16,087 bases of DNA from Planctomycetota bacterium (GTDB lineage: Bacteria > Planctomycetota > Planctomycetia > Pirellulales > Pirellulaceae), in NCBI GenBank assembly GCA_024277285.1, contig JAJRVM010000320.1, forward strand, positions 1 through 16,087. The letters are read 5' to 3'. Positions 930 to 16,087 of the stretch are shown here, one piece after another. Position 1 is the first letter of the stretch. Every line of letters begins with the position of its first letter. The notes below the pieces were generated by a model, which was given only the letters and a program-made list of their open reading frames with translations, did no database searches and was not told where the DNA came from. Position numbers and translations under genes: made by a program.

Positions 930-2015
930 ATGGCGAGCGATTTTCAAGCCCCGCAGTCTTCTGCCCCTGACCCAGGAACGCCTGACAGTACACTCTCGCG
1001 TGACGCATCGTCAATTTCCGAATCATTGCATCAAGACGATGTCGCAGCGATCGACCAATTGCGTGGTGCGTACGATTCTCTGTGCAACGAATTGGGGCGC
1101 ATTATTATTGGCCAGCAAGAGGTGGTCGAGAAGCTTGCCATCTGCTTATTCGCCGGTGGGCATGCTTTGCTAATGGGCGTTCCTGGCTTGGCCAAGACGT
1201 TGTTGGTCAGCCGTCTCGCCGAGACAATGTCGCTTGACTTCAGCCGAATCCAATTCACACCCGACCTGATGCCGATGGACATCACGGGTACCGACATTTT
1301 GCAAGAGGCGCCTGGGCAGAAGCGGGAATTCGAGTTTGTCAAAGGACCGGTCTTTGCCAATATCGTCTTGGCTGACGAGATCAACCGAGCCCCGGCCAAG
1401 ACGCAAGCGGCGATGCTCGAGGCCATGCAGGAACACAAGGTCACGGTGGTCGGCAGAACCTATCCGCTGGCCCCTCCCTTTTTCGTGTTGGCCACGCAAA
1501 ATCCGATCGAACAGGAAGGGACGTACCCGCTGCCCGAAGCGCAGTTAGACCGATTCATGTTTCTGATCGAAGTGGACTATCCGGATCGCGCCGAGGAGAT
1601 TGAAATCGCACGGACCACGACCGGCCAAGAACTGCCAACACTCGACAAGATCCTCAATGGCACTCAAGTCTTAGAGTTCCAAGCCTTGGTACGTCGCGTT
1701 CCGGTGCCGGAGCACATTTACGAGTTTGCGGCCGATCTGGCTCGGCAAACTCGCCCCAAGAGCCAAGAGGCGCCGGAATGGCTCAAGCCGCTTGTCGCCT
1801 GGGGCGCCGGGCCGCGTGCGGTCCAGTATCTGGTTTTGGGTGCGAAAGCGCGCGCCGCACTGCGCGGCAGCTACATGGTGGGACTGGAGGACGTGATCGC
1901 CGTCGCCCAACCCGTGTTAACGCACCGGGTAATTACGACGTTTGCGGCCGAATCGGAAGGAATCAGCAGCCGAGACGTCGTGAAGCGATTGGTGGACGAA
2001 CTGTCGGCGACCTGA
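930..2015 (+). CDS. MoxR-family AAA+ ATPase
   Basis: This 361-residue protein is a MoxR-type AAA+ ATPase, a cytoplasmic ATP-driven chaperone-like enzyme thought to remodel or load cofactors into partner complexes, often with VWA proteins. The Walker A motif GVPGLAKT is at residues 83-90, the Walker B segment IVLADE at 145-150, the sensor 1 region LATQN at 187-191, the arginine-finger stretch LPEAQLDRF at 201-209 and a sensor 2 type GPR at 294-296. Length and order fit the AAA_3 plus lid family. Residues 1-35 are a low-complexity, Ser/Pro/Asp-rich extension before the conserved core. The ATG at 930 has no strong Shine-Dalgarno, only a GTGAG-like stretch upstream. It is the first gene of a cluster with DUF58 and two VWA membrane proteins, the classical MoxR partners. 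Family assignment is secure; the client is not known. Confidence 0.97.
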   Translation: MASDFQAPQSSAPDPGTPDSTLSRDASSISESLHQDDVAAIDQLRGAYDSLCNELGRIIIGQQEVVEKLAICLFAGGHALLMGVPGLAKTLLVSRLAETMSLDFSRIQFTPDLMPMDITGTDILQEAPGQKREFEFVKGPVFANIVLADEINRAPAKTQAAMLEAMQEHKVTVVGRTYPLAPPFFVLATQNPIEQEGTYPLPEAQLDRFMFLIEVDYPDRAEEIEIARTTTGQELPTLDKILNGTQVLEFQALVRRVPVPEHIYEFAADLARQTRPKSQEAPEWLKPLVAWGAGPRAVQYLVLGAKARAALRGSYMVGLEDVIAVAQPVLTHRVITTFAAESEGISSRDVVKRLVDELSAT

Positions 2016-2090
2016 CCCGCGCGGCGCGGCAGCGTGACCGATCGAATCGTATCGATAGGTGGGTAATAGAAGAGATAGACATCTGGTAGT

Positions 2091-2107
2091 GGGAGGCCCT
2101 TGGTTTG
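2091..2107 (+). promoter_or_regulatory. Shine-Dalgarno fixing a TTG start
   Basis: GGGAGG at 2091-2096 stands 8 nt before the TTG at 2105-2107. This is one of the best ribosome binding sites in the window, and it supports a non-ATG start for the DUF58 gene because no ATG lies near the conserved N-terminus. Confidence 0.75.
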
Positions 2108-3004
2108 ACGGAACAGGTACATCGCGACTACCTGGAACCTGCCGTATTGGCGCGGCTGGCGGCGTTGCCGTTGGACGCTCGGTTCCCCATGCTAGGCAAC
2201 GTATCGGGCCGCCATCGCAGCCCGATACGAGGATCGAGTGTGGAGTTTTCGGAGTACCGCAAATACGTCCCCGGCGATGACACGCGGCGACTCGACTGGC
2301 GTGCCTACGCTCGAAGCGACCGTTTTTTCATCAAAGAATTTGAAGCCGACACGAATCTGCGTTTGTGTCTGATCATCGATACCAGCGGGTCGATGCAATA
2401 TGCCAACGGCGGTTTGACGAAACTGGATTACGCGCGCCGCATCGCCGGCACGTTGGCATACCTCGCAGCGCGCCAAGGCGACGCCGTGGGACTCTACTGT
2501 GCCGGCGCCGATTTAGTCCGAGAAATCCCTCCGAAACGTAATGCCGCCCACTTGCGGCACATCTTGGACCAAATTGGGAGCGTGCAGGCGGCCGGAGAAA
2601 CCGGGCTCTGCAAAACGCTTCACCAGGCAGCCGAGCGTGTTCAGCAGCGCGCATTGATCGTGATCATATCCGACCTATTCGTCCCACCCGACCAACTGCG
2701 TGGTGCCTTTCAACACTTGCATTATCGTAAACATGACGTGGCGTTGTTTCATTTGATGGAAAGGAACGAACTCGAGTTCGATTTTGACCGGCCGGTTCGC
2801 TTTTTGGATCTGGAAGGTGGCCCCGCCGTGCTAGCCGACCCAACCGTCATTGCGCGCCAATACCACCGATCCTTGGCACGTTACCTTGAGGGGCTTGACC
2901 AAGCCGTACGGGACACCATGGTTGATTACCGGCGTGTTTCGATCGACCAGTCATATGCCGACGTACTCGCGCGATTCCTGTTGGCGCGAACGCGTGGAAA
3001 ATGA
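2105..3004 (+). CDS. DUF58 domain protein with VWA-like fold
   Basis: This 299-residue protein belongs to the DUF58 family, partners of MoxR ATPases. The family signature is visible at residues 44-80 as SSVEFSEYRKYVPGDDTRRLDW followed by AYARSDRFFIKEFE (residues split here for length). A VWA-type metal-binding site follows: D92-x-S94-x-S96 in IDTSGSMQ, with T166 and the ISD at 188-190 as candidate second and third loops. There is no signal peptide or membrane segment, so it should be cytoplasmic or peripherally associated. Translation starts at TTG 2105, supported by GGGAGG upstream. It lies 89 bp after the MoxR gene and 63 bp before the BatA-type gene, which fits one transcript. DUF58 proteins are inferred adaptors linking MoxR to membrane targets; the target here is probably one of the neighbouring VWA membrane proteins. 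Confidence 0.95.
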   Translation: MTEQVHRDYLEPAVLARLAALPLDARFPMLGNVSGRHRSPIRGSSVEFSEYRKYVPGDDTRRLDWRAYARSDRFFIKEFEADTNLRLCLIIDTSGSMQYANGGLTKLDYARRIAGTLAYLAARQGDAVGLYCAGADLVREIPPKRNAAHLRHILDQIGSVQAAGETGLCKTLHQAAERVQQRALIVIISDLFVPPDQLRGAFQHLHYRKHDVALFHLMERNELEFDFDRPVRFLDLEGGPAVLADPTVIARQYHRSLARYLEGLDQAVRDTMVDYRRVSIDQSYADVLARFLLARTRGK

Positions 3005-3048
3005 ACGATAGCATTTCGACCGTTCCCGCACCGGTGTCGGGAAGCTAA
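3001..3048 (+). other. Fifteen-codon mini-ORF and stem-loop between DUF58 and BatA genes
   Basis: An ATG at 3001 overlaps the DUF58 stop codon as ATGA and opens a 15-codon frame (MNDSISTVPAPVSGS) ending in TAA at 3046-3048, 19 nt before the next gene. Within it lies a stem-loop: TTCCCG at 3023-3028 pairs with CGGGAA at 3038-3043 around a 9-nt loop. There is no T-run, so it is not a standard terminator. It could couple translation to the next gene, or be chance. Confidence 0.25.
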
Positions 3049-3067
3049 TTGCGGTAGTGATTCACTT

Positions 3068-5083
3068 ATGACATTTCTCCAACCCATCTTGCTCGCCGCA
3101 CTGCCGTTAGTGGCATTGCCGATCGTGATTCACTTGATCAATCGGCAGCGGCACCGGACGATTCCGTGGGGGGCGATGATGTTCTTGCTTGATGCCAAAC
3201 GGATGACGCGTGGCATCGCTCGGCTGCGTTACTGGTTGATCATGGCCATGCGGATGCTGGCCATCGCCACATTGATTTTCGCCGTGGCGCGGCCTTTGGC
3301 CAGCGGCCGCATGGGGTTGGCGTTTGGCGGTGCTCCCGACACCACGGTCATCGTCTTGGACCGGTCAGCGAGCATGCAGCAACAGGATATTGCATCAGGC
3401 ACGACCAAGCAGACGGCGGCGCTGCGAAAACTGTCCGAGCTAATGCGCACGTTGGGGCGATCGCCCCACGTCGTATTGATCGAGAATGTGGCCAACCGCC
3501 CCCTGCCGGTCGAATCACCCGAAGCCTTGTTGCACTTGCCCGCCGTGACCCCCACTGACACGGGCGCAGACCTGCCAGCGATGCTGCAAACGGTACATGA
3601 TTATCTCGTTGCCAACCAATCGGGGCGAACCGACATCTGGATATGTTCCGATATGCAGGCCTCCGATTGGCAACTGGATGATGGTCGATGGCGTGGATTA
3701 CGTGATGGATTCGCTCCGATGGAAGGCGTACGATTCTATATCCTCTCGTATCCCGACACCGCCACAAACAACCTGTCGGTACGTGTGGAAAAGGCTCGCC
3801 TTGGCCTGGTTGGCGACCGGACGCAGCTCGTATTGGACGTTGTGGTGCGTAGGGCCAAGGCCGACGCCACGCCGACCAACGTGCCGATCGAGTTCGTCAT
3901 CAATGGTGCGCGATCGGTCGTCAATATCGAGATGACGGACATTGAATACCAGTTACAGGGACATACGCTTGCACTTGGCGAGGGATCGCGCAGTGGCTGG
4001 GGGTACGTCGAATTGCCCGCGGACGCGAACCTGCACGACAACCGATTCTATTTCGTTTTCGGCGATCCTCCCGAGCGTCATACCGCGATCGTATCGACCG
4101 ATTCCCGAGTGGCCCACGCGATGCAAATCGCTGCCACGTCGCCGGTCGATCCAACGCTATCGTATACCGCCAACATCTTCACGCCGACACAACTCGCCAG
4201 TCTCAAGTGGGAAAAAACATCGCTGATACTCTGGCAAGCACCTCTTCCCGAGGGAACGGTTGCTCAGCAGCTGAGCCAGTTTGTGGAGAGCGGCCGCCCG
4301 GTTTTGTTTTTCCCTCCGGCACAACCCAACAACACGGCGTGGTCGGGATTTCGCTGGGATGCGTGGCAAGCGGCCGATGCCGACAAACCCTTGCGTTTGC
4401 AAACGTGGCGCGGTGATAGTGATTTATTGCAGCATACGCAAAGCGGTGTATCACTGCCGCTCGGTAAACTGAAAATCTTCCGCTACTGCACGGTCGACGG
4501 CAAAGGTCAACCTCTTGCCACACTCGACAACGGCGTCACGCTGTTGCAACGAAGCTCGTTGGGCGGTGGCACGTTCTACTTCTGTGCAACACTGCCCCGT
4601 TTGTCCGAATCGACCATGCTGCGTGACGGAGTGGCATTCTATGTCATGCTGCACCGCGCTTTAGAAACAGGCGCCGCAACACTTGGCAAAGTCCGGCAGC
4701 TGGCCGCCGGCAGCCCCACGGCTCAAGAGATTGCTTCGTGGAAACTCCTCTCTACCGCGCCAGCTGGATCGTTTTCTTCTGACCGAACGTTATTTGCCGC
4801 GGCGTACCAGAACAAAGATCGGCTGGTTGCCATGAATCGCCCGGCCAGCGAAGACGCCGCCGCACCTATCGACGTACAGCAAATTGACAAGCTCTTTCAT
4901 GGACTGCACTACCGGACGGTGAAGGAAGAGATCGGCAGCACGTCTGCGTTGGCCAGTGAAATATGGCGTCTGTTCGTTTTCCTCATGGGCGCCGCTTTGA
5001 TCATCGAGGCAGTCCTCTGCTTGCCCGAGCGCAAGTTGACGTACGGCACCCGCACAGCCGCGCAAACGGAACCGGTCCCATGA
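3068..5083 (+). CDS. BatA-type VWA membrane protein
   Basis: This 671-residue protein starts with the BatA N-terminal domain: a first membrane helix at about residues 4-23, the typical IPWGAMMFL motif at 32-40 and a second helix at about 56-75. A VWA domain follows with the metal-binding pattern D98-R-S100-A-S102, T165 in TDTGAD and D195 in ICSDMQ, so all three MIDAS loops appear present. Residues about 338-418 look like the glutamine-amidotransferase-like fold found in this class, without a nucleophilic Cys. A last helix spans about 632-651, with a short tail. Most of the protein should therefore be held at the membrane between helices 2 and 3. The ATG at 3068 has only a weak GGTAGTGA-like binding site. 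The stop overlaps the next gene's start as ATGA. The family is a presumed MoxR partner in the cell envelope; precise function is unknown. Confidence 0.92.
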   Translation: MTFLQPILLAALPLVALPIVIHLINRQRHRTIPWGAMMFLLDAKRMTRGIARLRYWLIMAMRMLAIATLIFAVARPLASGRMGLAFGGAPDTTVIVLDRSASMQQQDIASGTTKQTAALRKLSELMRTLGRSPHVVLIENVANRPLPVESPEALLHLPAVTPTDTGADLPAMLQTVHDYLVANQSGRTDIWICSDMQASDWQLDDGRWRGLRDGFAPMEGVRFYILSYPDTATNNLSVRVEKARLGLVGDRTQLVLDVVVRRAKADATPTNVPIEFVINGARSVVNIEMTDIEYQLQGHTLALGEGSRSGWGYVELPADANLHDNRFYFVFGDPPERHTAIVSTDSRVAHAMQIAATSPVDPTLSYTANIFTPTQLASLKWEKTSLILWQAPLPEGTVAQQLSQFVESGRPVLFFPPAQPNNTAWSGFRWDAWQAADADKPLRLQTWRGDSDLLQHTQSGVSLPLGKLKIFRYCTVDGKGQPLATLDNGVTLLQRSSLGGGTFYFCATLPRLSESTMLRDGVAFYVMLHRALETGAATLGKVRQLAAGSPTAQEIASWKLLSTAPAGSFSSDRTLFAAAYQNKDRLVAMNRPASEDAAAPIDVQQIDKLFHGLHYRTVKEEIGSTSALASEIWRLFVFLMGAALIIEAVLCLPERKLTYGTRTAAQTEPVP

Positions 5084-7269
5084 TCCATGGTCTCTCTTTT
5101 GCTTGGACTCCTTGGAGCCTCACGACCGGCATTCTGCTGGTCGTGATCGCCGCGTTCTTGTGCGCCCTGGCGTGGCGTCGAAGTGGGTACGCGCCGCGCG
5201 TCGGTCTGCTCGAATTACTGCGTCTGGTGATCGTCGTCATGGTGGCCATCACGTTGAACCAACCGGAGTGGCTCGAACAATATGTCCCCGAGCAACAACC
5301 GACGCTGGTGGTCCTGCTCGACCAGTCAGGCAGCATGCAAACGATTGACATGGCGGGTGACGGCAACGACCAACTGGTCTCGCGTGAGGCTTGGGCAGCG
5401 CAATTGGCCGCCCCGGCCCAATGGGAGCAGGTGGGTAACAAGCTGGACGTCGTTGTGGAGCCGTTCTCGTCATCGTTGAGCACACCGACAGACGGCACCG
5501 ATTTGAATGCCGCATTGGCGGCGACAACGTCCGAACATACCAACCTACGCGCGGTTGTCGTCGTCTCGGACGGTGACTGGAACACAGGCGAATCACCGGT
5601 GCAAGCGGCCAGCCAACTGAAGGTCAAAGGCATCCCCGTTTTCAGCGTTGGCGTTGGTAGCAGCACGCAACTGCCCGATATCGACCTGGTTCGCGTCGAT
5701 GCGCCGACGTTCGGCGTCGTGGGAAAGCCGATACGCATCCCCTTTGTCATTGACTGCATGCTGCCACGTGACTTGGATGTGACCGTCACGCTTACACCCT
5801 CCTCAGGCGAAGCGGTGACGGCTGAGGTGACGTTGCCGGCAATGGGACGATTGGAAGAGACGATCCTATGGACGCCCGCCGAGGTGGGAGAATTCGAGCT
5901 GACGATTGACGTTCCGGCTGATCCGCAGGAAACGCTGACCGATAACAACCAACGTATCGTTCCGATCACGGTTCGTGAAGAAGCGATTAAAGTGCTGTTG
6001 GTCGAGTCGGTGCCGAGGTGGGAATACCGGTACCTGCGTAATGCCTTGGAACGTGACCCCGGCGTCGAGGTATCCTGCCTGTTGTTTCATCCTGGCTTGA
6101 GCAAGGTGGGAGGTGGCCACGGATATCTCAAATCGTTTCCCGGCACGATGGAAGCACTTTCCAAGTTCGATGTATTGTTTCTCGGCGATGTGGGCGTCGG
6201 CGATGGTCAATTGACGACGGAGCAATGCCGTCTGATCAAGGGGCTGGTCGAGCGACAGGCAAGTGGCTTGATACTGATGCCAGGGATGCGTGGACGACAT
6301 TTGTCGTTCGTTGGAACCGACCTGGAGACACTCTATCCCGTCACGCTCGACCCTTCGCAACCACACGGCTGGGGCAGCCGCACCGCCGCGCAGTTCGAGT
6401 TAACGAGCGCCGGCCGCCGTAGCCTGCTCACGCGGCTTGAAGACTCGGAAGATGCGAACGCCGCGCTTTGGGAGTCACTACCCGGCTTCCAATGGTATGC
6501 CGCTGTGGAACGTGCCAAGGTCAACAGCCAGGTCCTGGCCACGCATAAGACCCAACGCAATCAGTACGGCCGCCTCCCCCTGCTAGTGACCAACACGTAC
6601 GGGACAGGGAAAGTGCTGTTCATGGGCACCGATGGCGTCTGGCGGTGGCGTGAAGGGGTCGAGGACAAGTATCACTATCGGTTCTGGGGCCAGGTCGCGC
6701 GCTGGATGGCCTACCAGCGCAGTATGGCGGCGGGCGAGCTGATGCGACTCTATTATACCCCGGACCGGCCTCAAGTGGGGGACAGCGTCACGTTCTATGC
6801 CAATGTCGCGGGGGCCGACGGTGAGCCGTTACAACAGGGCACCGTCGCCTTGCAAGTCGTCTCCCCGCATGGCAAAACCGAAAGTGTCCGTCTGCTGCCG
6901 CGCGGTGACGAATGGGGGTTATTTTCGAATACCTTCATCCCGGAGGAACGTGGCACATTCAAGCTTTCGCTCACCTGCGCAGAGAACGGTGCTACACTCG
7001 ACACCAAACTGGATGTCCAAGGTACGGTCGTGGAACGAATCGGCCGCCCTGCTCGACTCGACGTCTTACAAGAGCTTGCCGACGTCACCGGTGGCCAACT
7101 GATGCGGCCCAGCGAGTTGGAATTGCTATGGGAATCGATCGCTCAATTGCCCGAACCATCGCCTGAAGTCCGCCGGCTACGGCTCTGGTGCCATGTCGCG
7201 TGGGCCAGTTTTCTTGTGTTTTTGTTAGCCATCTTCTGGATAGGCCGTAAAATGGTGGGAACCGTCTAG
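5080..7269 (+). CDS. VWA membrane protein with GATase-like domain
   Basis: This 729-residue membrane protein has two N-terminal helices at about 13-31 and 44-60, a VWA domain from about 75, and a C-terminal helix at about 703-722. The MIDAS residues are D81-x-S83-x-S85 (LDQSGSMQ), T140 in TDGTD and D164 in VVSDGDWN. Residues about 200-298 resemble a CARDB-type beta domain. Residues about 302-425 resemble the class I glutamine-amidotransferase fold, but the nucleophile position sits in LILMPGMRG with no Cys, so it is likely non-catalytic. The start at 5080 is chosen because it forms an ATGA overlap with the previous gene and begins just before the first helix. A longer frame from 4963 would overlap that gene by 120 bp and add an Arg-rich stretch with no support. 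It is the last gene of the first cluster. Confidence 0.9.
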   Translation: MIHGLSFAWTPWSLTTGILLVVIAAFLCALAWRRSGYAPRVGLLELLRLVIVVMVAITLNQPEWLEQYVPEQQPTLVVLLDQSGSMQTIDMAGDGNDQLVSREAWAAQLAAPAQWEQVGNKLDVVVEPFSSSLSTPTDGTDLNAALAATTSEHTNLRAVVVVSDGDWNTGESPVQAASQLKVKGIPVFSVGVGSSTQLPDIDLVRVDAPTFGVVGKPIRIPFVIDCMLPRDLDVTVTLTPSSGEAVTAEVTLPAMGRLEETILWTPAEVGEFELTIDVPADPQETLTDNNQRIVPITVREEAIKVLLVESVPRWEYRYLRNALERDPGVEVSCLLFHPGLSKVGGGHGYLKSFPGTMEALSKFDVLFLGDVGVGDGQLTTEQCRLIKGLVERQASGLILMPGMRGRHLSFVGTDLETLYPVTLDPSQPHGWGSRTAAQFELTSAGRRSLLTRLEDSEDANAALWESLPGFQWYAAVERAKVNSQVLATHKTQRNQYGRLPLLVTNTYGTGKVLFMGTDGVWRWREGVEDKYHYRFWGQVARWMAYQRSMAAGELMRLYYTPDRPQVGDSVTFYANVAGADGEPLQQGTVALQVVSPHGKTESVRLLPRGDEWGLFSNTFIPEERGTFKLSLTCAENGATLDTKLDVQGTVVERIGRPARLDVLQELADVTGGQLMRPSELELLWESIAQLPEPSPEVRRLRLWCHVAWASFLVFLLAIFWIGRKMVGTV

Positions 7270-7314
7270 CTGGACAGCGGGCGTGAGCCGCCCAACGATT
7301 GCGCTGTGAAATCA

Positions 7315-7362
7315 CCAATGACCCAATGACCAAACACCCAATAACGAAATAATGACGAAATC
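7315..7362. repeat. Degenerate CCAATGAC-type tandem repeat
   Basis: CCAATGAC occurs twice back to back (7315-7322 and 7323-7330), followed by related words: ACCCAATAACG at about 7336-7346 and TAATGACGAAATCC at about 7350-7363. It is AT-richer than its surroundings and interrupts no frame. Similar short, degenerate AATGAC/ACGAAATCC blocks are, from memory, common between genes in planctomycete genomes; I could not check this. Confidence 0.45.
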
Positions 7363-7452
7363 CGAAGCCAACAAACGGTGTTCGCACCCGCTTTGTGCAA
7401 GCGCGTCGTTGCGAAACATTCGTAACAGTTTAGCCGAATGAAGTAATGTCGC

Positions 7453-7659
7453 TTTCCAGAGACTCCCATGGGCTTGTCCCATGGGTGAAAACGGCTGGTG
7501 AGCTACCCGCGATGCCAGCTACTCCCCCCTTTCGTCCCCGCCGCCTTCGGCGGCGGGGACGAAAGGGGGCCGTGGATGTGGGGGGAGATGGGACGTCACG
7601 GGTAGCGTACCAATCATCTTCACCCACCGCACAAGGCGGTGGGGGTCGTCCGATGGAAA
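7453..7659. repeat. Composite inverted repeat with covarying arm hairpins (REPIN- or MITE-like)
   Basis: The left arm contains CCCATGGG-CTTGT-CCCATGGG at 7465-7485. On the opposite strand the right arm reads CCCACCGC-CTTGT-GCGGTGGG (7643-7623). Both have an 8-bp stem and the same CTTGT loop, and both are followed by TGAA and then, at identical spacing, GCTACCCG. Over the 29 bases after the hairpin the arms match at 21 positions, and TTTCCA lies outside each hairpin. The stem sequences differ but pairing is kept, which points to selection for structure. Two such units facing each other around a spacer hairpin is the arrangement of REPIN elements mobilised by RAYT (TnpA-REP) enzymes. No transposase gene is in the window. 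It might instead be a structured RNA or a non-autonomous MITE. Confidence 0.65.
7525..7569. repeat. Perfect 21-bp hairpin inside the composite repeat
   Basis: Bases 7525-7545 pair perfectly with 7549-7569 around the loop TTC at 7546-7548. The arms run from CCCCC through TTTCGTCCCC to GCCGCC. There is no T-run on either side, so it is not an intrinsic terminator in the usual sense, although such a stem could stall polymerase or protect a transcript end. It lies at the centre of the two-armed element. Confidence 0.85.
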
Positions 7660-7943
7660 ATGAACTCGGGTGCACGTCCCACTTCAGATGGCTAAACCGT
7701 TACGGAACATCGAATATCGAGCGAGGAGTGCAGAAGTGAAAAGTGCCCTGATGCGATGGCAATGGGACGAATTGGCGTTGACGGGGCAACGCAACGTCAC
7801 GGCGTCAAGGTCACCGCTCTCATCCAGGTCCGTATGGGCTTGTTTCCTTCGGCCTTCTGCGGTTGCTTGTTCGATATTCTGCGGTTCGTTTTCTTCGTAG
7901 AGTTTGAATTCGCGTGAACGGTTACCTTTCAAGAACCTGTGGT

Positions 7944-8001
7944 ATAGCAGCTGGAACATAGCAGCTGGAACATAGCAGCTGGAAACATAGTGGCTGGAAA
8001 G
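7944..8001. repeat. Four tandem 14/15-bp units upstream of the second cluster
   Basis: The unit ATAGCAGCTGGAAC occurs at 7944-7957 and 7958-7971. It is followed by a 15-bp variant ATAGCAGCTGGAAAC at 7972-7986 and a diverged unit ATAGTGGCTGGAAAG at 7987-8001. The first three carry the palindrome CAGCTG at 14-bp spacing. The array ends 71 nt before the ATG at 8073. An operator array for a dimeric regulator or a slippage product are both possible. It is not a CRISPR, because there are no spacers. Confidence 0.8.
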
Positions 8002-8060
8002 TGTCGTCACGAGCCGAGAGGCTCTTGTATCGAGCAAATTGTGTGACAAGTACAAGGACG

Positions 8061-8075
8061 AGGAGTCATTTCATG
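8061..8075 (+). promoter_or_regulatory. Shine-Dalgarno fixing the ATG at 8073
   Basis: AGGAG at 8061-8065 (GAGGAG from 8060) is 7 nt before ATG 8073. It overrules the in-frame GTG at 8001, which lies at the end of the tandem repeat and has no binding site. Confidence 0.8.
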
Positions 8076-10742
8076 CAAGTTGGCAACGCTCACCATTTGG
8101 AGCTCCCGACACAGCTGCGCCATAAGCTGGAGACCTATCGGCGCCGCGTGTGGATGGTCAAATTGGCCGAGGGGGTTTTAGCCGGCATCTTCGGGCTGCT
8201 GGTATCGTACTTGCTCGTATTCGTACTTGATCGGTTTGGCGACACGCCCGCCTGGCTACGATTGTTGCTGTTGCTCACTGGCGTCACCGTCTTTGCCCTT
8301 GGGATCCCCTTGAAGTGGCACCGCTGGGTGTGGCAAACTCGCCAGCTTGAGCAAGCAGCGCGACTCTTACGGCATCACTTTCCCCGCATTGGCGACCAGC
8401 TACTCGGCATCGTCGAGCTGGCGCACAACGAACTCGAGCAGGAGCGATCGGAAGCACTCTGTCAAGCCGCAATGCGTCAAGTGGACCACGAAGTACGCGA
8501 TTGCGATTTTCGTGGCGCGGTTCCACATCCTCGGCATCGCCATTGGGCGTGGGGAACCGGTTTAGTAATGACGATCGCCGCGGCAGCACTGGTTATCGTG
8601 CCCGCCGCCAGCACCAACGCACTTGCACGGTGGTTGTTCCCGTGGCGGGATACGCCCCGTTACACTTTCGTACAGCTCAGCGACATTCCCGACCAGATGG
8701 TCGTCCCCTATGCCGAGCCGTTCCAGATCAATGCTCGCTTGGCGACGCATAGCCAGTGGAAGCCGCAGTCTGGCAGCGCACAATACGGGCGGCAAAACGC
8801 GGTCGAGGCATCGTTGAACGACGATCGCTATCAGTTTTCACTACCGCCGCAGAAGGATCCCGACGCGTTGACCATTGCGATTGGCGACGCGCGAAAACAA
8901 GTCCACATCGCGCCAACGTCGCGTCCTGAACTAACGGAAGTCATGGCACATATCGAATTGCCTGAATACTTGCGCTACGACTCTTACCCCGATCAGGACG
9001 TGCGTAGCGGTTCGCTGTCGGTGATCAAAGGAAGTCGAGTGGCAGTTTCCGCGTCCGTCACACGGGGACTATCAGAAGCAACGCTCGGCGATCAATCGCT
9101 GACCACCGTGGAGAATCTGTTTCGTGTGCCGCCAACATTGATCGCCGACTCGCAAGAGCTCACGATGCACTGGCGCGACGAACTCGGCTTGTCGGCCAAA
9201 GAACCCTTTCACCTGCGACTCACAGCCGTGGAAGACGACGCGCCGACAGTCACTTGTGTCAAACTGCCACGCGAACAAGTGATCCTGAGTACCGACACAA
9301 CGTCGTTTGAAGTATTGGCTCGAGACGACTTCGGGGTCAAGACGGTCGGCATCCAATGGCAAGGGATCGCGGACCCGGTGCGGAATCCACACCCTGCCCA
9401 GGGTGAGCACATTGTCGCGGTCGGTGCACCCGAAAAGCGTGAATTGAATGCCAAGGCTGCGTTTTCGACCGAACGCCTGAGGATCGAACCGCAATCACTT
9501 GAAGTGCGCCTCTTTGCCATCGATTACCTGCCAGGGCGTGAACGAGTCTATTCGCCGACCTACATCTTTCACGTACTCAGTCCCGAGGAGCATGCCATCT
9601 GGTTGACGCATCAGTTGCGCAGATGGTATCAGCGTGCCAACGAAGTGTACGAACGCGAACAGCAGCTCTATGCCGAGAATAAAGCCATTCGCGCGTTATC
9701 AGCCGAGCAGCTTGACAAGCCACAGACGCGGCGCCGGATTGAAACCCAAGCCGCTGCTGAGCAAGCCAACGCGAGACGACTCGGAACGCTAGCCATGGTG
9801 GGCGAGGAACTGGTCAAGCAGGCCACGCGCAACAAGGAATTCAACGTGGCGACTCTGGAGACATGGGCTGAAATGCTGCAGGCACTCAAGAAGATCGCCG
9901 ACAAACGCATGCCGTCGGTGGCGGACTTGCTGAGTGACGCGGCCAATGCGCCGGGAGCGGCACCGCCCAAGCCACCGTCGCCCCCAGCATCCGACTCCAA
10001 GACCCCACCGCAAGTGGGTAAGAATCGTGACCCTCGCACCGGGCCGCCAGGCAAGACCAAACCGGCGAAGCCGAGCGCAGTCGTGCCGCAGGTGGTCGAT
10101 GTCGAATCCGGTTTCAACGAGCTTGACAAGCCAAAGGAAACGGATGCATCCGAAAAGAAACCGGGGCAGCCACAATTGCGACTACCCGGCACCGCTGTCG
10201 TCGGTGGCGGCTCGAAACCCAAAGAGGATGCGAAGTCGTGCCCCGCGAAAAAGAAAGTGGAAGAGGCAGTCGCCGAACAGGAAGACTTGTTGGCCGAGTT
10301 CGCTAGAGTGGCCGACGAGCTTAAGAAACTGCTAGGCGACCTGGAAGGAAGTACCTTTGTGAAGCGACTCAAAGCCGCCTCGCGGCGTCAAATTGCCGTC
10401 GCCAAAGAACTGAACGAGTCGGTTGAGTCAGGGTTTGGCTTGAACCCGCATGAAGCTGCGAAAACGGATCGCGAAAGGCTTGCAAAAGTCGCCGACCGTG
10501 AGATTCAACACGGCGATGATATCTATGTGATTGAAGACGATCTCGAGGCTTATTTCAACCGTGTGCAAGAGGGCAAGTTCAAGACCGTATTGAACGAGAT
10601 GAAATCGACTCACGTGGTCAGCAACCTGCACGGCATCGCCAAGTCACTGCGCGATAATATGAATGGCCAGTCCATTGCGGACGCGGAGTTTTGGGCCGAC
10701 ACACTCGACCGATGGGCCGAACAGCTCGTCGGCCCTGGGTGA
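8073..10742 (+). CDS. Large three-TM envelope protein, possible first part of a recoded gene
   Basis: By the standard code this is an 889-residue protein of the planctomycete family found beside MoxR/DUF58/VWA genes, somewhat like DUF4175 proteins; it has no known function. Helices are predicted at about 33-52, 62-80 and 163-178. The positive-inside rule places the rest of the protein outside the cytoplasm. Residues about 200-500 look like beta-rich, Ig-like material. Residues about 505-615 and 725-780 are charged helical, coiled-coil-like stretches, separated by a Pro/Lys-rich linker at about 622-725. The start at ATG 8073 is set by AGGAG upstream. The stop is TGA at 10740. After it the same frame continues past a second TGA at 10758 and stays open to 11381, giving 1102 residues if both are read through. 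The true C-terminus may therefore lie in the next reading frame. Confidence 0.85.
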   Translation: MQVGNAHHLELPTQLRHKLETYRRRVWMVKLAEGVLAGIFGLLVSYLLVFVLDRFGDTPAWLRLLLLLTGVTVFALGIPLKWHRWVWQTRQLEQAARLLRHHFPRIGDQLLGIVELAHNELEQERSEALCQAAMRQVDHEVRDCDFRGAVPHPRHRHWAWGTGLVMTIAAAALVIVPAASTNALARWLFPWRDTPRYTFVQLSDIPDQMVVPYAEPFQINARLATHSQWKPQSGSAQYGRQNAVEASLNDDRYQFSLPPQKDPDALTIAIGDARKQVHIAPTSRPELTEVMAHIELPEYLRYDSYPDQDVRSGSLSVIKGSRVAVSASVTRGLSEATLGDQSLTTVENLFRVPPTLIADSQELTMHWRDELGLSAKEPFHLRLTAVEDDAPTVTCVKLPREQVILSTDTTSFEVLARDDFGVKTVGIQWQGIADPVRNPHPAQGEHIVAVGAPEKRELNAKAAFSTERLRIEPQSLEVRLFAIDYLPGRERVYSPTYIFHVLSPEEHAIWLTHQLRRWYQRANEVYEREQQLYAENKAIRALSAEQLDKPQTRRRIETQAAAEQANARRLGTLAMVGEELVKQATRNKEFNVATLETWAEMLQALKKIADKRMPSVADLLSDAANAPGAAPPKPPSPPASDSKTPPQVGKNRDPRTGPPGKTKPAKPSAVVPQVVDVESGFNELDKPKETDASEKKPGQPQLRLPGTAVVGGGSKPKEDAKSCPAKKKVEEAVAEQEDLLAEFARVADELKKLLGDLEGSTFVKRLKAASRRQIAVAKELNESVESGFGLNPHEAAKTDRERLAKVADREIQHGDDIYVIEDDLEAYFNRVQEGKFKTVLNEMKSTHVVSNLHGIAKSLRDNMNGQSIADAEFWADTLDRWAEQLVGPG

Positions 10743-10760
10743 GCCAGCGGGGGCTCGTGA
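10740..10760 (+). other. Two in-frame TGA codons, candidate Sec codons (U-x5-U)
   Basis: TGA at 10740-10742 and TGA at 10758-10760 are in the frame of the upstream gene and of the downstream frame, with five sense codons between them (GCC AGC GGG GGC TCG). The decoded junction would read GPG-U-ASGGS-U-PGSKGGSLPPS. The intervening and following codons keep the G/C-rich third position of the neighbours. If recoded, the residues are 890 and 896 of a 1102-residue protein, in a part predicted to be outside the cytoplasm. Confidence 0.45.
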
Positions 10761-10772
10761 CCGGGCTCCAAA

Positions 10773-10789
10773 GGTGGCAGTTTGCCACC
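10773..10789 (+). promoter_or_regulatory. SECIS-like hairpin
   Basis: GGTGGCA (10773-10779) pairs perfectly with TGCCACC (10783-10789) around the loop GTT (10780-10782). The published bacterial SECIS consensus asks for a short stem, a small apical loop with G and U in its first positions, and about 16-37 nt between UGA and loop. Here the loop starts with GU, the stem has 7 bp, and the distances are 19 nt from the second TGA and 37 nt from the first. A weaker hairpin, GAGCC (10741-10745) with GGCTC (10752-10756), overlaps the TGAs. The hairpin would also bury the TTG at 10782. Confidence 0.4.
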
Positions 10790-11381
10790 CTCCGTCGTTC
10801 TGGAAGTAATGCGAATCCTCCACGAAGAAATGGAATTGCGTGAAGAAACACGCGCACTTGAACAAGCAAAACCAGCGTTAGACCAAGACGCGTATTTGCA
10901 GCAGGCGAACCAGCTGGCTGATACGCAGGCCGAGTTGGCATCGCGCGTAGGCGACGTCACCGAGAAGATCCGCGCGTTGCCCGAAAGCGAAGCGAAGTTC
11001 GCGCGCGAAATGGCGCTGCTCACACGTGTGGAAGAGGTGATGGTCGAGGCACAGCAATTGCTGGTAACACCGGAAACCGGTGCCGAAACGATTGCCGCCG
11101 AAACCGAAGCGATCGAGCTATTGCTGCAAACCAAACGGATCAATCCCAAGGGTGGCGGCGGGGGTGGCGGCTCGTCGCCTGGCGGTGGCGGAACCGGCAA
11201 GACCGATCAATCGGCGTTGGCACTGCTTGGCAGCGGCGCGGAAACCAAGGCGGACACCGCTTCTCGCTCGGTACGGCAATCGACCGGAGTCAGCGGAATT
11301 GAGTTGCCGGCCGAATTCCGGCAAGGACTCGACGCGTTTTTTGAAGCTCTGGAGCGAAGTGGCACAGCGGGAACGGAATGA
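10782..11381 (+). CDS. Gly-rich C-terminal module; separate gene or continuation of the upstream protein
   Basis: As a separate gene this is 199 residues from TTG 10782, or 190 from ATG 10809. It is rich in Glu, Ala and Gln, with helical, coiled-coil-like stretches over about residues 5-115. Then come a poly-Gly linker at about 125-140 (GGGGGGGSSPGGGG) and an acidic C-terminus. I know no defined domain. It has no signal peptide or membrane helix of its own. The start is poor: the TTG lies in the 3' half of a 7-bp hairpin and its possible binding site AAAGGTGG in the 5' half. GGAAG before ATG 10809 is only 2 nt away. The frame is the same as that of the upstream gene, with 39 nt and two TGA codons between. 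From memory, planctomycete relatives of the upstream protein carry this module as their C-terminus, which favours one protein; this is unverified. The stop overlaps the next gene as ATGA. Confidence 0.7.
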   Translation: MPPSVVLEVMRILHEEMELREETRALEQAKPALDQDAYLQQANQLADTQAELASRVGDVTEKIRALPESEAKFAREMALLTRVEEVMVEAQQLLVTPETGAETIAAETEAIELLLQTKRINPKGGGGGGGSSPGGGGTGKTDQSALALLGSGAETKADTASRSVRQSTGVSGIELPAEFRQGLDAFFEALERSGTAGTE

Positions 11382-12544
11382 ACAATCTACAAGAACCGTC
11401 GCAAGTGACAGATACCTTGGCAACTACAACCGACCATGCCGACCGGCCCACGTTGCGGGCTCCGCAAGCGGGCGCGCGACGCGATCGACGACCGCTTTGC
11501 CAGCGCTGGATGATCGGCGTGATCGTTACTCTGCTGGCCTTGCATGGCAGCGCAGCGCACGTTCGGGCTCAGGGGCCTGCGATTCGTTACGGCGCGAAGG
11601 TCCCTCAAGACGTTCGTTTGATGTACGAGCGCGGGCTCAACTATCTGGCCAAGACCCAGCAGGAAAACGGGGCGTGGCCGAGCGGCTATGGTCAGGGCAT
11701 CGGCGGAATCTGTATGCTCGCGTTTCTGGCTAACGGCGAGGATCCAAATTTTGGACCGCACAGCCTGGTTATTCGTCGCGCTTTGCGTGGGATCATCGAG
11801 AGCCAGGATGCGAACACCGGCTACATACCCAGCAGCATGTACTGCCACGGGTTCGGCATGCTGGCGTTGGCCGAATCGTACGGCGCGGTCGATGAAACGC
11901 AGTTGTGGCCAGCCGGCAAACAGACAACGCGACGGCGTTCGATCGGCAAGGCACTTGAACTTGCCGTGCGTGCCGCGATCACTTCGCAGAAGAACAACCG
12001 CCTGGGTGGCTGGCGGTACTCGCCGCGCGACAATAGCGCCGACACATCGGTCTCCGGCGCCGTCCTGATCGGCCTGCTCGCCGCACGCAACGCGGGAATC
12101 GAAGTCTCTGACAAGTCGATTGACCGGGCGCTGGAGTATTACAAGGGTGCGACCAGCGACCATGGCACGGTCGCCTATGCCAGCGGCATGGGAGGCATGG
12201 GCCAATCGATGAACCGGTCATCGATCGCCACGCTTGTTTACTCGATCGGCAAGCGGAAGAAGTGGAGTGAATACACGGCGACATTGGACTACATCACTGG
12301 CAATCTTGAGCACCAGGAATCGGGCTACCCCTTCTACTTTCGCTACTACATGTCACAAGCCTTGTTCCAGGGTGATTTTGACGCGTGGACCAAATGGAAA
12401 CGGGAAAACACACGTATCCTGAAGGAGATTCAGCAAGATGATGGCAGCTTCCAGGGTGGACATGGCGGGCCACAGTACTCCACGGCGATGGCGTTGCTGT
12501 CGTTGGCGCTCGACTACCGATTCCTACCGATCTACGAGAGGTAG
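11378..12544 (+). CDS. Secreted prenyltransferase/squalene-oxidase repeat (alpha-alpha toroid) protein
   Basis: This 388-residue protein has a late signal sequence: a basic stretch at 34-43 (RRDRRPLCQR), a hydrophobic core at about 45-58, and a likely cleavage near HVRA-QG around residue 65. The mature part shows repeats of the alpha-alpha toroid superfamily: GLNYLAKTQQENGAWPSG at 86-103, IIESQDANTGYIPSS at 139-153, AAITSQKNNRLGGWRYSP at 199-216, and ILKEIQQDDGSFQGGHGG at 347-364. Each has the QxxxGxW-like pattern of prenyltransferase and squalene-cyclase repeats. I see no DxDD or similar cyclase catalytic motif, so it is better called a toroid binding or scaffold protein than a cyclase. It starts by ATGA overlap with the frame before it and ends 6 nt before the next gene, so co-translation is likely. 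This family is common and poorly characterised in planctomycetes. Confidence 0.9.
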   Translation: MNNLQEPSQVTDTLATTTDHADRPTLRAPQAGARRDRRPLCQRWMIGVIVTLLALHGSAAHVRAQGPAIRYGAKVPQDVRLMYERGLNYLAKTQQENGAWPSGYGQGIGGICMLAFLANGEDPNFGPHSLVIRRALRGIIESQDANTGYIPSSMYCHGFGMLALAESYGAVDETQLWPAGKQTTRRRSIGKALELAVRAAITSQKNNRLGGWRYSPRDNSADTSVSGAVLIGLLAARNAGIEVSDKSIDRALEYYKGATSDHGTVAYASGMGGMGQSMNRSSIATLVYSIGKRKKWSEYTATLDYITGNLEHQESGYPFYFRYYMSQALFQGDFDAWTKWKRENTRILKEIQQDDGSFQGGHGGPQYSTAMALLSLALDYRFLPIYER

Positions 12545-12550
12545 CTGTTA

Positions 12551-15500
12551 ATGCAATCGGCACTTATCCGGTTAAAACGTTGGTGGAAAGGTGGCGTCAT
12601 GTTGGCCGCCACCGTGGTGCTCCTTGGTGCCGTAGTCGATCTCTCGCTGGCCGAAGGGCGAGGCCAGCTTGGCACATTGCATTGGCACAATCGAGATCAA
12701 CTGCCGGGCATCTTGTGCGATGCCAACGACAAAACATTACGCTGGCAATCACCCTACTTCGCTACTCCCTTCACCCTTGAGCTCAGTGCGTTGCGAGCGA
12801 TCGAGTACCCAACGCCCGAGGAACCGGTCATTTCAGAGCAGCCCTTTCGATTCGTGACCGTCACCAATGACGTATTTCTAGGCGATCTCGTTGAAATCAC
12901 GGACCAGGACGTCGTCATCCGTAGTCCGCGTCACGGGGAACTTCGAATAAAACGGTCACATCTGATCGGGTTGCAACGACATAATCGTAAAACGGCCGGA
13001 TCGGTCGGACTTGGCATGCTGAGCGATTGGAAGACGTTGCACCACGGGCGACAAATCTCGGAGTGGACGCGCGCAATCGACGGGCGCATCGTGACGGAAG
13101 TCACCGGTGCCGAACTGTATCGCGATCTCCATATGGGCGGGCTTTCCGAAATCGAATTGACCTTAAGTTGGACGGGCAAACCGGGGTTCATGATTTCGTT
13201 CGCCCGGCCCGACGACGTTCGGCTTTCCAAGACCGTGATCAAATTAGAGACGTGGGAAAACGACCTCGTATTGCAAACGCTCGGTGCCAACGGCGATTTT
13301 GAAGTCATCGACACGATTCCGGCAAAGGCGCAAACGCTCGATCTGCGCTTGCAATGGAACCCCGTGACCGGCGAGCTTTCGGTGTTTTCGTCGCTGGGAC
13401 GCCTGTTGGGCAAGATGAAGGGACCCACCGCGCCGACCGCACAACTAACGGGACTCTATATTCAAAACAAAGGCGCAACACTGAAACTGGCCAATCTGCG
13501 TGCAAGCGGTTGGGACGAGACAACCACGGAACTGCCAGCCGGTTCGGTTCGCGTTCGCACGGCCAAGCAAAAGAAGGCGCTAACCGGAGTCATCACGCGC
13601 GTCGATACCGCGGCGCGCGTGTTGGTTTTGAAAATGCCCGCCAACGGCACTCAGCCGATACCTCTGGACGATATCGACAGCATCGACCTGGGAAACGAGG
13701 CGATCCCGGCAAGCAAGTCGGTTCCCACTCGCATCTCGTTTCTCGACGGCACACAGATCACCGGGAATCTGGCCTCGATTCAAGACAACGTGCTTTCGAT
13801 GACAACGTCGTATTCCGACGCCCCCGTCACCGCTCGAACGGACGGGCTATTCAACATTCATTTTGCCGAACCCCAAAATGAAACGAAGACCGCCAATCTC
13901 GATACACTCAACTACGAACAAGGAAGATTGCATGGTACGTTGGTGGCAGTCGCGCAACAGGGCGATGCCGCCGGCTGGCGCCCCGTCGGAGGGCTCAATG
14001 CGTGTGTGCTGCCGACCGACATGTCGTTTCGTGTCACCCGGAAACTAGACTCGGCAGATGCCGCCACACCGGGTCATCGGTTCCTCGACCGCATCTTCCT
14101 GCGCAATGGCGATGCTCTGCCTTGCAGTATTCACGGTATCGATTCCTCGCATCTGGATATTGTCGTCCCGCACACGGGTCGCAGCCAAATAGACCGGAAT
14201 GTCGCGGTCGCGATTGAGTTGGGAAGACGATCCAGCTCGATCTCGCGCAGTTTTGACGACCCGCAGTGGGTCATTAAACCGGGCCGTAAGGAGAACGTGG
14301 AACGGACTGGCAAGGAAATGACGATACGGGGCCGTGCGACAATCGCCTACGATAACATCCGTGATGCGGACGAAATCGCGTTCGATGTGAAATGGAACAT
14401 GAGCACCGGCGCACTGATCCGCATTTCGTTGTTCGGTGACTCTGCCGGCAGAGTGGGGCAAGTCAGCAGCATCATGCTCTACCGCGCGCAGGGCAGCCGC
14501 GTGGTGGTCCAGGCGATGGGAATGCGTGGAGCCAACGGCATGAGAGTCCAAATGGGCATGGGCATGCGTGCAAACGCTCAGGTGCAAACCCACGATGGTA
14601 CCAACTCGTTTCGTTTCCGGATCTACCCCAAGAAGATCGTGGTTTATGAGAGTGGCAAAGAGGTTTTGCAGTTCGCGATCAACCGGGCCAAGATAACGGG
14701 TCGAGAATTGACGTTTGATATCCAACCTCTGAATGTCCGCGTGGGGGGAATAGGCAACGCGAGAGTCGTTGGGGCCGCCAAAGCCAAGCCGGTACTTGTC
14801 ACGCTGCTCAACCCGATGGTTCGGCGCGGTCGTGGCGATCTCCTGAATGCGCTCGCGGATGAGGAACGCCGCAATCGGCTGTTGACAATCCCTCGATTTC
14901 GCAAGCAATCGCCTCCCACGGAGATTCTGGTCGCCTATAACGGCGATCTGCTGCGAGGTCGCTTGATGGCACTCGACGACAAACAGGTATCATTCGTCTC
15001 GCGATTGGACGAAATCACGGTCCCCCGAGAACGGCTGGCGGGGATCATCTGGCCGCAAACGGAACAAGCCAATAAGGAAACGGCCGATGCCCTCCAGGGC
15101 CTGATGCGTATTCTCTTTACGGACGGTTCCAATATTCGGATCAAGCCCGAGCGAATTGTGGATGACGCGTTAGTCGGGCAGCATCCGGCGTTAGGTAAAA
15201 TCGCAATTCCGCTTTCCCAAACACGCGAACTGTCGATGGGCACACTTAGCAAGATGCCGGCATCACGCTATTCCGAATCACCGTCAATTTCCTTTGCCGA
15301 CTGGACACTCCGACCTGCCTTGGAACCGAAATTTGAACAGGCAACTGATGGCAAGGGCAACGGTCGCGGCGGCGAGTCACCTTTGGTCGGGAAACCTGTG
15401 CCGGTTTTCAACGCCAAGTTGCTTGACGACTCAGGGTTTCGCATCTCGATGCAAAAGGGCAAAGTGATTGTCCTCGACTTCTGGGCCACCTGGTGCGGAC

Positions 15501-15808
15501 CGTGCGTTGCCTCGATGCCTGATACGGCCAAGACGGTCGCCGAATTCCCTTCCGACAAGGTCATGTTGGTAGCCGTCAACCAGCTTGAAACCGCTGATAC
15601 GATTCGCCAGTTCATCGAACAGCGGAATTGGGACATCAACGTGGCGTTGGACGAAGACGGCAAAATCGGCAAACTTTTCCACGTCAACTCGATCCCCCAA
15701 CTGGTCGTCATCGACGCCACTGGCATGGTGCAACGAGTCTTTATCGGTGCCCATGATGATCTCCCTGAGGAGCTTAAGCAGGTCCTGACGCAGCTTACGG
15801 CCGATTAG
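12551..15808 (+). CDS. Secreted multi-repeat protein with C-terminal TlpA-like thioredoxin domain
   Basis: This 1085-residue protein begins with a clear signal peptide (RLKRWWK, hydrophobic core about 15-30, cleavage near SLA-EG at 34). Small beta units of about 45 residues recur at about 39-86, 100-142, 343-380, 393-438, 512-557, 790-834 and 850-897, with a pattern like FxDGxxxxGxLxxIxxxxVxxxxxxxxxxIxxxxIxxI. Two beta-sandwich, LamG-like regions lie at about 157-320 and 572-740. A Gly-rich linker at 932-942 leads to a thioredoxin fold of the TlpA/ResA type at about 943-1085, with active site W981-C982-G983-P984-C985 and cis-proline P1049 in NSIPQ. Such domains reduce or isomerise thiols outside the cytoplasm. 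AGAGG at 12537-12541 is 9 nt before the ATG. It lies 6 nt after the toroid gene. Domain assignment is firm at the C-terminus, inferred elsewhere; the substrate is unknown. Confidence 0.92.
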   Translation: MQSALIRLKRWWKGGVMLAATVVLLGAVVDLSLAEGRGQLGTLHWHNRDQLPGILCDANDKTLRWQSPYFATPFTLELSALRAIEYPTPEEPVISEQPFRFVTVTNDVFLGDLVEITDQDVVIRSPRHGELRIKRSHLIGLQRHNRKTAGSVGLGMLSDWKTLHHGRQISEWTRAIDGRIVTEVTGAELYRDLHMGGLSEIELTLSWTGKPGFMISFARPDDVRLSKTVIKLETWENDLVLQTLGANGDFEVIDTIPAKAQTLDLRLQWNPVTGELSVFSSLGRLLGKMKGPTAPTAQLTGLYIQNKGATLKLANLRASGWDETTTELPAGSVRVRTAKQKKALTGVITRVDTAARVLVLKMPANGTQPIPLDDIDSIDLGNEAIPASKSVPTRISFLDGTQITGNLASIQDNVLSMTTSYSDAPVTARTDGLFNIHFAEPQNETKTANLDTLNYEQGRLHGTLVAVAQQGDAAGWRPVGGLNACVLPTDMSFRVTRKLDSADAATPGHRFLDRIFLRNGDALPCSIHGIDSSHLDIVVPHTGRSQIDRNVAVAIELGRRSSSISRSFDDPQWVIKPGRKENVERTGKEMTIRGRATIAYDNIRDADEIAFDVKWNMSTGALIRISLFGDSAGRVGQVSSIMLYRAQGSRVVVQAMGMRGANGMRVQMGMGMRANAQVQTHDGTNSFRFRIYPKKIVVYESGKEVLQFAINRAKITGRELTFDIQPLNVRVGGIGNARVVGAAKAKPVLVTLLNPMVRRGRGDLLNALADEERRNRLLTIPRFRKQSPPTEILVAYNGDLLRGRLMALDDKQVSFVSRLDEITVPRERLAGIIWPQTEQANKETADALQGLMRILFTDGSNIRIKPERIVDDALVGQHPALGKIAIPLSQTRELSMGTLSKMPASRYSESPSISFADWTLRPALEPKFEQATDGKGNGRGGESPLVGKPVPVFNAKLLDDSGFRISMQKGKVIVLDFWATWCGPCVASMPDTAKTVAEFPSDKVMLVAVNQLETADTIRQFIEQRNWDINVALDEDGKIGKLFHVNSIPQLVVIDATGMVQRVFIGAHDDLPEELKQVLTQLTAD

Positions 15809-15814
15809 CACATT

Positions 15815-15976
15815 TCACGCCATCGCGCGACCATCCTCGGTACAACCTTCCACCGGCGCGTATCGTAACCCGGCACACACGCAGCTTCCTGCCACGCCCA
15901 GATTCGTGTGACACCGGCAACCGCATACTGGGCAGTCGGAAAAAAGGTAGCCGTTCACGGTGCTTCGTTTCAACAC
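15815..15976 (-). CDS. Possible 53-residue Cys-rich protein (GTG start)
   Basis: On the minus strand a frame from GTG at 15976-15974 to TGA at 15817-15815 encodes 53 residues with seven Cys: C15, C18, C20, C22, C32, C34 and C45, in the pattern CPVCGCRCH then CVC. An in-frame TGA lies 9-11 nt upstream of the GTG, so the frame cannot be much longer. Clustered CxxCxCxCH plus CxC suggests a metal-binding or metallothionein-like peptide, though I know no matching family. It converges with the thioredoxin-fusion gene, with stop codons 7 nt apart. The start codon is non-ATG, the binding site weak (GTGAG) and third-position composition undistinguished, so it may be chance. Confidence 0.22.
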   Translation of the reverse strand: MLKRSTVNGYLFSDCPVCGCRCHTNLGVAGSCVCAGLRYAPVEGCTEDGRAMA

Positions 15977-16003
15977 AGCGACTCACGGTAAAAGCAGCGA
16001 ATT

Positions 16004-16051: not shown

Positions 16052-16087
16052 TGTCGTTATCAAGAGAATCGTTAGCCCCGGTAGGGG

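Follow-up and report, generated by a model that had tools for sequence, protein, structure and literature searches.

A putative planctomycete membrane selenoprotein with two in-frame UGA codons at cysteine positions

Does a planctomycete gene that appears to be cut in two by a pair of in-frame stop codons encode a single protein with two selenocysteine (Sec) residues? This question is raised by a stretch of 16,087 nucleotides (nt) from a Planctomycetota bacterium of the family Pirellulaceae (assembly GCA_024277285.1, contig JAJRVM010000320.1, positions 1 to 16,087), which we refer to as the window. A reading frame in the window opens at ATG 8073 and meets TGA at 10740-10742 (UGA1, residue 890) and again at 10758-10760 (UGA2, residue 896). 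Past both TGAs, the frame is unchanged and open up to TGA 11379-11381, giving 1,102 residues (frame 8073-11378). A first-pass annotation had described this frame and proposed a selenoprotein, and translation of the window bore the frame out. We consider it very probable that both TGAs are Sec codons and that the product is one 1,102-residue membrane protein with the motif U890-x5-U896 (U, Sec). We hold with equally high confidence that the gene looks like two broken genes because of its two internal UGAs and that Sec sits where relatives have Cys.

A homolog search with residues 560-1102 as the query found 2,398 proteins (120 listed; 7,998 candidates scored). Among the matches listed, most homologs were single chains of about 1,085 to 1,150 amino acids (aa), and the named source organisms were planctomycetes or just "bacterium." The alignment to planctomycete homologs called for by the first-pass annotation was run on 67 full-length homologs that we picked by hand from the listed matches; the UGA2 column (896) was Cys in 61/67 and the UGA1 column (890) in 32/67. 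The in-frame UGAs stand opposite Cys residues of homologs, and the sequence to either side is conserved. The motif of the window reads LVGPG-UGA-ASGGS-UGA-PGS, that of the nearest full-length relative (P0003) reads LVGPG-C-PDGGP-C-PGG, and CxxCxxC is present in many Cys forms. The earlier belief that relatives are single uninterrupted proteins across this join thus holds for many homologs, which have Cys either at 890 and 896 together or at 896, and homologs are not generally two separate proteins with normal starts.

A rival explanation is two genes, with UGA1 ending an 889-residue protein and the C-terminal part (C-part) being reinitiated at TTG 10782 or at an ATG further down. Database gene callers often annotate the locus in this way, with N-terminal parts (N-parts) that stop at 890 or 896. 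In the nearest relative, the N-part (P0013; 79% identical to the window over residues 560-889) ends exactly at residue 889, and its likely C-part (P0124; 80% identical to that of the window) is listed on a contig of equal size (18,399). A search for N-part ends found 983 proteins, of which 120 were listed and 99 were examined, the other 21 being full-length proteins already seen. In this set, which the length rule of the search biases toward truncated proteins and which is no measure of prevalence, 70/99, among them that of the window, have their last residue immediately before column 890, and 18/99 have it immediately before column 896. The corresponding C-part search found 842 matching proteins, all of C-part size by its length rule; the 120 listed were mostly 185 to 200 aa, and some are perhaps only contig-end pieces. 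Besides the window's, 19 same-sized contigs (matched by eye) are in both the N-part and C-part lists. Some N-parts (P0247, P0280, P0284-P0286, and P0298) end in ...GPGCPSGG[ST], with Cys at 890 and the stop at 896. Such N-parts are intermediate between the Cys/Cys form and the two-TGA form.

The TGA form recurs in other genomes. In the order of a related metagenome-assembled genome, 170 genomes were searched; 91 had the gene, and 24 were flagged with an internal TGA, 21 at the motif. A further 10 TGA forms with DNA came from a class-wide sample, in which 135 of 397 genomes gave a match, and a phylum-wide sample (match in 18 of 392 genomes) contributed G459 and G683. The order of G459 contains G459 alone and provided no further two-TGA gene. 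The resulting DNA set comprises 34 sequences (i.e., the window and 33 genomes), with L065, a second copy of the G086 stretch, left out of the counts. TGA is at 896 only in 31 of the 34, at both columns in 2 (the window and G086), and at 890 only in 1 (G459); the 896 column thus carries TGA in 32 other genomes and the 890 column in G086 and G459. The internal stops are TGA, and not TAA or TAG, in all 36 cases across these independent homologs, and CC comes next in 35 of them; the true terminators of the same genes are a mixture of TGA, TAA, and TAG. The first-pass annotation had raised the doubt that there might be no real TGA at these positions, and the recurrence of TGA at these columns in 33 other genomes speaks to it. 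The single TGA at 896 lies within GG[TSA]-U-PG in 31/34 TGA forms. No Cys remains in the motif of 31/34, which suggests that in most single-TGA forms one Sec has taken the place of the Cys cluster.

Several flagged genes were rejected as counter-examples. The stop lies 191 to 193 residues past the motif, at the normal end, in G068, G101, and G277, and the TGA of G055 is at +153 in a match split into two pieces; all four have Cys at the motif. In G120 the stop is a TAG located at the normal end, and G136 contains several stops. The TGA rows of G616, G576, G600, and G195 fall in distant or short matches; the motif region, read for the first two of these four, contains neither TGA nor Cys. G058 apparently has two gene copies (G058:C2:1468-2292 [L027] and G058:C529:8239-9054), of which the first form has a motif TGA and the second no internal stop, possibly a Sec/Cys pair. 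A scan of viral contigs found no relative.

Downstream of the UGAs, the window contains a hairpin resembling a Sec insertion sequence (SECIS), with a loop that begins 19 nt past UGA2 and 37 nt past UGA1. Its folding energy is -10.5 kcal/mol (z, -3.9 against shuffled versions of these 17 nt). For a bacterial SECIS, the published model sets a loop of 3 to 9 nt, an upper stem of 4 to 16 bp, G in the first two loop positions, a distance of 16 to 37 nt from the UGA, and a minimum free energy of -7.5 or lower (PMC13188914). The window hairpin satisfies this model in spacing, loop, and stem, UGA1 only just, and the 7-bp GTT-loop hairpin claimed earlier, at 19 and 37 nt, is accordingly within the bacterial range. 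Hairpins of at least 7 Watson-Crick pairs with fitting spacing and the loop-G rule occur at 0.8% of window positions (both strands) and follow 4 of the 448 TGA triplets of the window; UGA1 and UGA2, sharing one hairpin, are among these four. Taken alone, the hairpin and the in-frame TGAs are suggestive only.

Comparison of the two forms was more informative. The Ser-Leu codons at the hairpin apex are AGT-TTG in 33/34 TGA forms versus 4/36 Cys forms on the tree. (An earlier count, made before G459 and G683, was 32/32 versus 5/37; one Cys row with a short sequence was dropped from the tree, leaving 36.) Among seven independent pairs on the starred branches, a mean of 6.6 had AGTTTG on the TGA side (sign test, median p of 0.016), and the idea that AGT-TTG is a mere codon habit is weakened by the variation of Cys forms at this site. 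One stem pair, formed by the third positions of two codons, is C-G, U-A, G-C, or U-G across the TGA forms (U-A in the window). The stem is paired at 92.5% in TGA forms versus 59% in Cys forms, and in TGA forms the percentage paired, the cells changed on both sides, and the covariation score each exceed all 500 shuffles. Pairs with a change on both sides were not in excess in TGA forms (294/500 shuffles as high), nor were pair types (50/500), and Cys forms exhibited no covariation excess. An A.C stem mismatch, arising from a GAC codon, is present in four TGA forms (G086, G016, G020, and G459), all of which keep the GUU loop. We conclude that the hairpin is selected as RNA, with conserved wobble bases and one wobble pair that covaries.

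Sec machinery goes with the TGA form, though many Cys forms have machinery too. The criterion in the order was either SelB (above the cut-off in 63 genomes, with four partial matches of 190 to 208 bits also accepted) or a Sec tRNA (tRNA-Sec) of at least 55 bits; both this threshold (47 in Rfam) and the inclusion of partial SelB were our choice. By this criterion, machinery was present in 21/21 TGA-form genomes versus 26/70 other carriers (Fisher test, 5.7e-8). The curated SelB cut-off alone gave 18/21 versus 22/70, and tRNA-Sec alone gave 16/21 versus 23/70. Across the TGA-form genomes, which are relatives and not the window's own genome, SelA was over the cut-off in 32/33, SelB in 27/31 (with three more as partial pieces), and SelD in 29/31, and tRNA-Sec reached at least 55 bits in 25/31. 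Six Cys-motif genomes with a stop elsewhere were also checked, and in five of these (G277, G068, G055, G120, and G136) neither SelA, SelB, nor SelD passed the cut-off and no tRNA-Sec match reached 55 bits; that of G055, at 49.1 bits, is above the Rfam value. The SelD genes at G379:C19:20463-21389 and G245:C1:9201676-9202605 each contain one in-frame TGA, as expected for Sec-containing SelD.

A number of results weigh against the reading of both UGAs as Sec. The wider 71-nt region is unremarkable by folding energy (z, -1.2), so the case rests on comparative evidence, and a search of the window against Rfam gave no match at the gathering score (the only three matches near the site were far below theirs). 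The Cys counts reflect our own selection of homologs. For UGA1, the distance of 37 nt is the limit of the SECIS model, and its context (TGAGC) is the sole one of 36 with G next. TGA at 890 is seen in three DNA sequences only (the window, G086, and G459), and the codon is not visible for most of the database proteins whose ends fall at this column. Besides the window, a two-TGA gene is represented by DNA only in G086, where the hairpin has an A.C mismatch and folds weakly (-5.8 kcal/mol), and one TGA form, G683, has AGTCTG at the apex. As for the machinery, it is also present in the 26/70 other carriers mentioned above, SelA occurs in 6/8 tested genomes without TGA at the motif, and G101, with Cys at the motif, has SelA, SelB, SelD, and tRNA-Sec. 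Over phylogenetically independent pairs, the link between machinery and form was not significant (the same way in 1.2/4, the rest undifferentiated). Some TGA-form genomes are short of one component over the cut-off (SelA in G269, SelB in G236, and SelD in G113 and G269), and strong tRNA-Sec is missing from G058, G020, G106, G112, G114, and G405. These single missing components may reflect incomplete assemblies.

Despite the split annotations, the two-gene explanation is very improbable. Homologs are fused, with Cys at the stop positions; the internal stop is always TGA; and TGA tracks with the Sec machinery and with the hairpin bases. The candidate start TTG 10782 itself lies inside the hairpin, as noted in the first-pass annotation, with the first T of TTG being the last base of the loop. 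Slightly less credible still is that a near-cognate or suppressor tRNA reads UGA as an ordinary residue (Cys, Trp, or Gly) with no Sec. Such decoding would explain the fusion of both parts, and UGA followed by C is a leaky context. TGA also ends the window gene (at 11379) and the genes of many TGA-form relatives, however, so there is no wholesale reassignment of UGA, and the conservation and covariation of the hairpin and the presence of SelA, SelB, and SelD would be left with no reason. A pseudogene or sequencing error, which a gene with two stops on a short contig might suggest, has next to no probability and is in practice refuted by recurrence, given that TGA is found at both of these columns elsewhere, in genomes whose proteins are about 50 to 61% identical, that the window and its nearest relative retain the identity reported above in both parts, and that the region past the UGA is under selection in relatives.

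This selection is evident from the ratio of nonsynonymous to synonymous substitution rates (dN/dS), which is 0.05 to 0.24 downstream of the UGA in seven TGA-form genome pairs, indicating purifying selection in relatives and not decay. Upstream of the UGA, the ratio is 0.04 to 0.11 in six pairs, and the seventh is saturated. The TGA and Cys forms are intermixed on the tree, with 15 changes, of which at least 7 are forced by the starred branches; the tree came from a quick search and has some long branches. With TGA read as Sec, Sec and Cys have replaced each other several times.

Under the preferred reading of both UGAs as Sec codons, SelB carrying Sec-tRNA would bind the GUU-loop hairpin as the ribosome arrives at a UGA, and Sec insertion would yield the single membrane protein. 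Two routes fit the decoding of UGA1: the GUU hairpin reaching back 37 nt or help from a second hairpin (10750-10769) that holds UGA2 in its loop. If folded, the second hairpin may cut the path from UGA1 to the SECIS from 37 nt to 17 nt. These 20 nt fold no better than their shuffles (z, -0.9). By inspection, G459 has a hairpin of similar place and size (8 to 9 bp; 4-nt loop), and in G086 the middle hairpin is not kept in the same register. As a possible classical SECIS belonging to UGA1 alone, the second hairpin has a spacing of 15 nt, one short of the model. G459 has no Sec at 896, yet AGTTTG is kept at the same 37 nt from the UGA1 column (spacing counted by eye), which, within a set of just three sequences, favors one SECIS common to both UGAs. 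The same SECIS may serve UGA1.

Hydropathy analysis of the protein gave three hydrophobic segments near residues 26-56, 58-82, and 158-185, with positively charged stretches ahead of the first segment and between the second and third. On the basis of this charge pattern, the Sec motif is predicted to face outward (i.e., to be extracytoplasmic). An AlphaFold2 model (mean predicted local distance difference test score, 81.6; predicted template modeling score, 0.61) contains beta domains at 208-502 and long helices, with the motif (about 886-905) in a low-confidence loop between helices 864-885 and 906-935. These predictions agree with the extracytoplasmic Gly-rich loop proposed at first pass. 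Fold comparison, mainly of the immunoglobulin (Ig)-like part (residues 197-504), returned beta-sandwich matches, which say nothing on function. With Pfam at an E value of 1, only subthreshold matches were found for the window protein and for five other homologs, and none for P0003; P0105 matched MalQ_N barely over the cut-off. P0112 is named "DUF4175 family protein" in the database, and Pfam at the same E value shows no DUF4175 in it.

The gene occupies the fifth position of a seven-gene cluster (MoxR, DUF58, BatA-like, VWA, selenoprotein, 388-aa protein, and thioredoxin-domain protein; Table 1), and the order is kept in L001. L001 has an extra 305-aa open frame (10622-11539) between the selenoprotein homolog and the next cluster gene; the window lacks this frame, and its two genes overlap by four bases at that point. 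Just upstream of the selenoprotein gene, at 7942-7999, the window contains short direct repeats of agctggaacatagc type (found by eye). PADLOC found nothing.

Table 1. Positions of the proposed selenoprotein gene, its RNA elements, and the neighboring cluster genes in the window
Feature	Positions	Strand	Remarks
Upstream part of proposed selenoprotein gene, residues 1-889	8073..10739	+	3 hydrophobic N-terminal segments, Ig-like beta domains (~200-504), helical domain
UGA1, proposed Sec codon, residue 890	10740..10742	+	Followed by GC; column is Cys in 32/67 aligned full-length homologs
UGA2, proposed Sec codon, residue 896	10758..10760	+	Followed by CC; column is Cys in 61/67 aligned full-length homologs
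Downstream part, residues 897-1102	10761..11378	+	Helices and Gly-rich tail; stop TGA 11379-11381
SECIS-like hairpin GGUGGCA-GUU-UGCCACC	10773..10789	+	7 Watson-Crick pairs; loop GUU 10780-10782
Second hairpin, 8 bp, loop UGAC holding UGA2	10750..10769	+	Possible SECIS or spacer for UGA1
MoxR-type AAA ATPase (PF07726), first cluster gene	930..2015	+	Same order in L001
DUF58/VWA protein (PF01882)	2105..3004	+	
Protein with BatA N-terminal domain (PF07584)	3068..5083	+	
VWA protein, weak subthreshold glutamine-amidotransferase similarity	5080..7269	+	Probable start; open frame from 4963
388-aa protein, no Pfam match	11378..12544	+	Start overlaps selenoprotein gene stop
1085-aa protein, C-terminal AhpC/TSA-thioredoxin domain (CGPC), hydrophobic N terminus	12551..15808	+	Candidate redox partner

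From these data we infer selenium insertion in the organism of the window, the sidedness of the motif, and a function. U890-x5-U896 would lie on the extracytoplasmic side, in a flexible loop that joins two helices, and might act as an extracytoplasmic redox switch (a diselenide, or a lone Sec in single-Sec forms) on a MoxR-VWA-BatA-type membrane assembly. The thioredoxin-domain protein encoded in the cluster is a natural candidate for the redox partner that could reduce the switch; metal binding by the Cys clusters may be an alternative role. The full scheme, i.e., an extracytoplasmic membrane selenoprotein family in which one GUU hairpin serves two UGAs, the hairpin with UGA2 in its loop shortens the path (37 to 17 nt), and two Sec in a row form a diselenide switch on a MoxR-VWA assembly, is speculative and, taken whole, rather unlikely.

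We compared the protein with catalogued families and known selenoproteins. NCBIfam 20.0 had no model at an E value of 1 for three members (P0001, P0003, and P0112). No such protein appears in Table 1 of a 2026 review (PMC13188914), which covers 119 families or subfamilies by the paper's count, and nothing like it is named in the available parts of PMC12013277, PMC5029168, PMC1794560, and PMC1242214. Selenoproteins and full Sec-insertion gene sets are reported for planctomycetes P1 and P2 in the available part of PMC4807772; Sec use in the phylum is common to both cases, and overlap with the selenoprotein list of that paper (S9 Table) is possible. Two Sec a few residues apart also occur in TsoB (UxxxxU), the metal-binding NF041115 (UxxU), and an FmdB-family regulator (UxxU), according to their entries in Table 1 of PMC13188914, by which alone they were compared. 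These have other domains, whereas the window encodes U-x5-U in a planctomycete membrane protein of about 1,100 aa with no Pfam or NCBIfam match. In the window and L001, the selenoprotein gene sits in a MoxR-DUF58-BatA-VWA cluster (PF07726, PF01882, and PF07584), but the selenoprotein itself matches none of these families. Within the limits of the catalogues and literature compared, the protein represents a new family of bacterial selenoproteins with an unusual paired-Sec variant.

The finding would add a widespread family of large membrane selenoproteins, by prediction perhaps not built around a thioredoxin fold, to a phylum with few selenoproteins described in the papers found, and it would mean that many planctomycete annotations break this one gene in two. 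A DNA signature (i.e., TGACC followed by the AGTTTG hairpin) is available for genome searching. The family also offers a natural series at one site (Cys/Cys, Cys/Sec, Sec/Sec, Sec/none, and lone Sec), on which both the advantage of Sec over Cys and the way in which paired UGAs are decoded can be put to a direct test.

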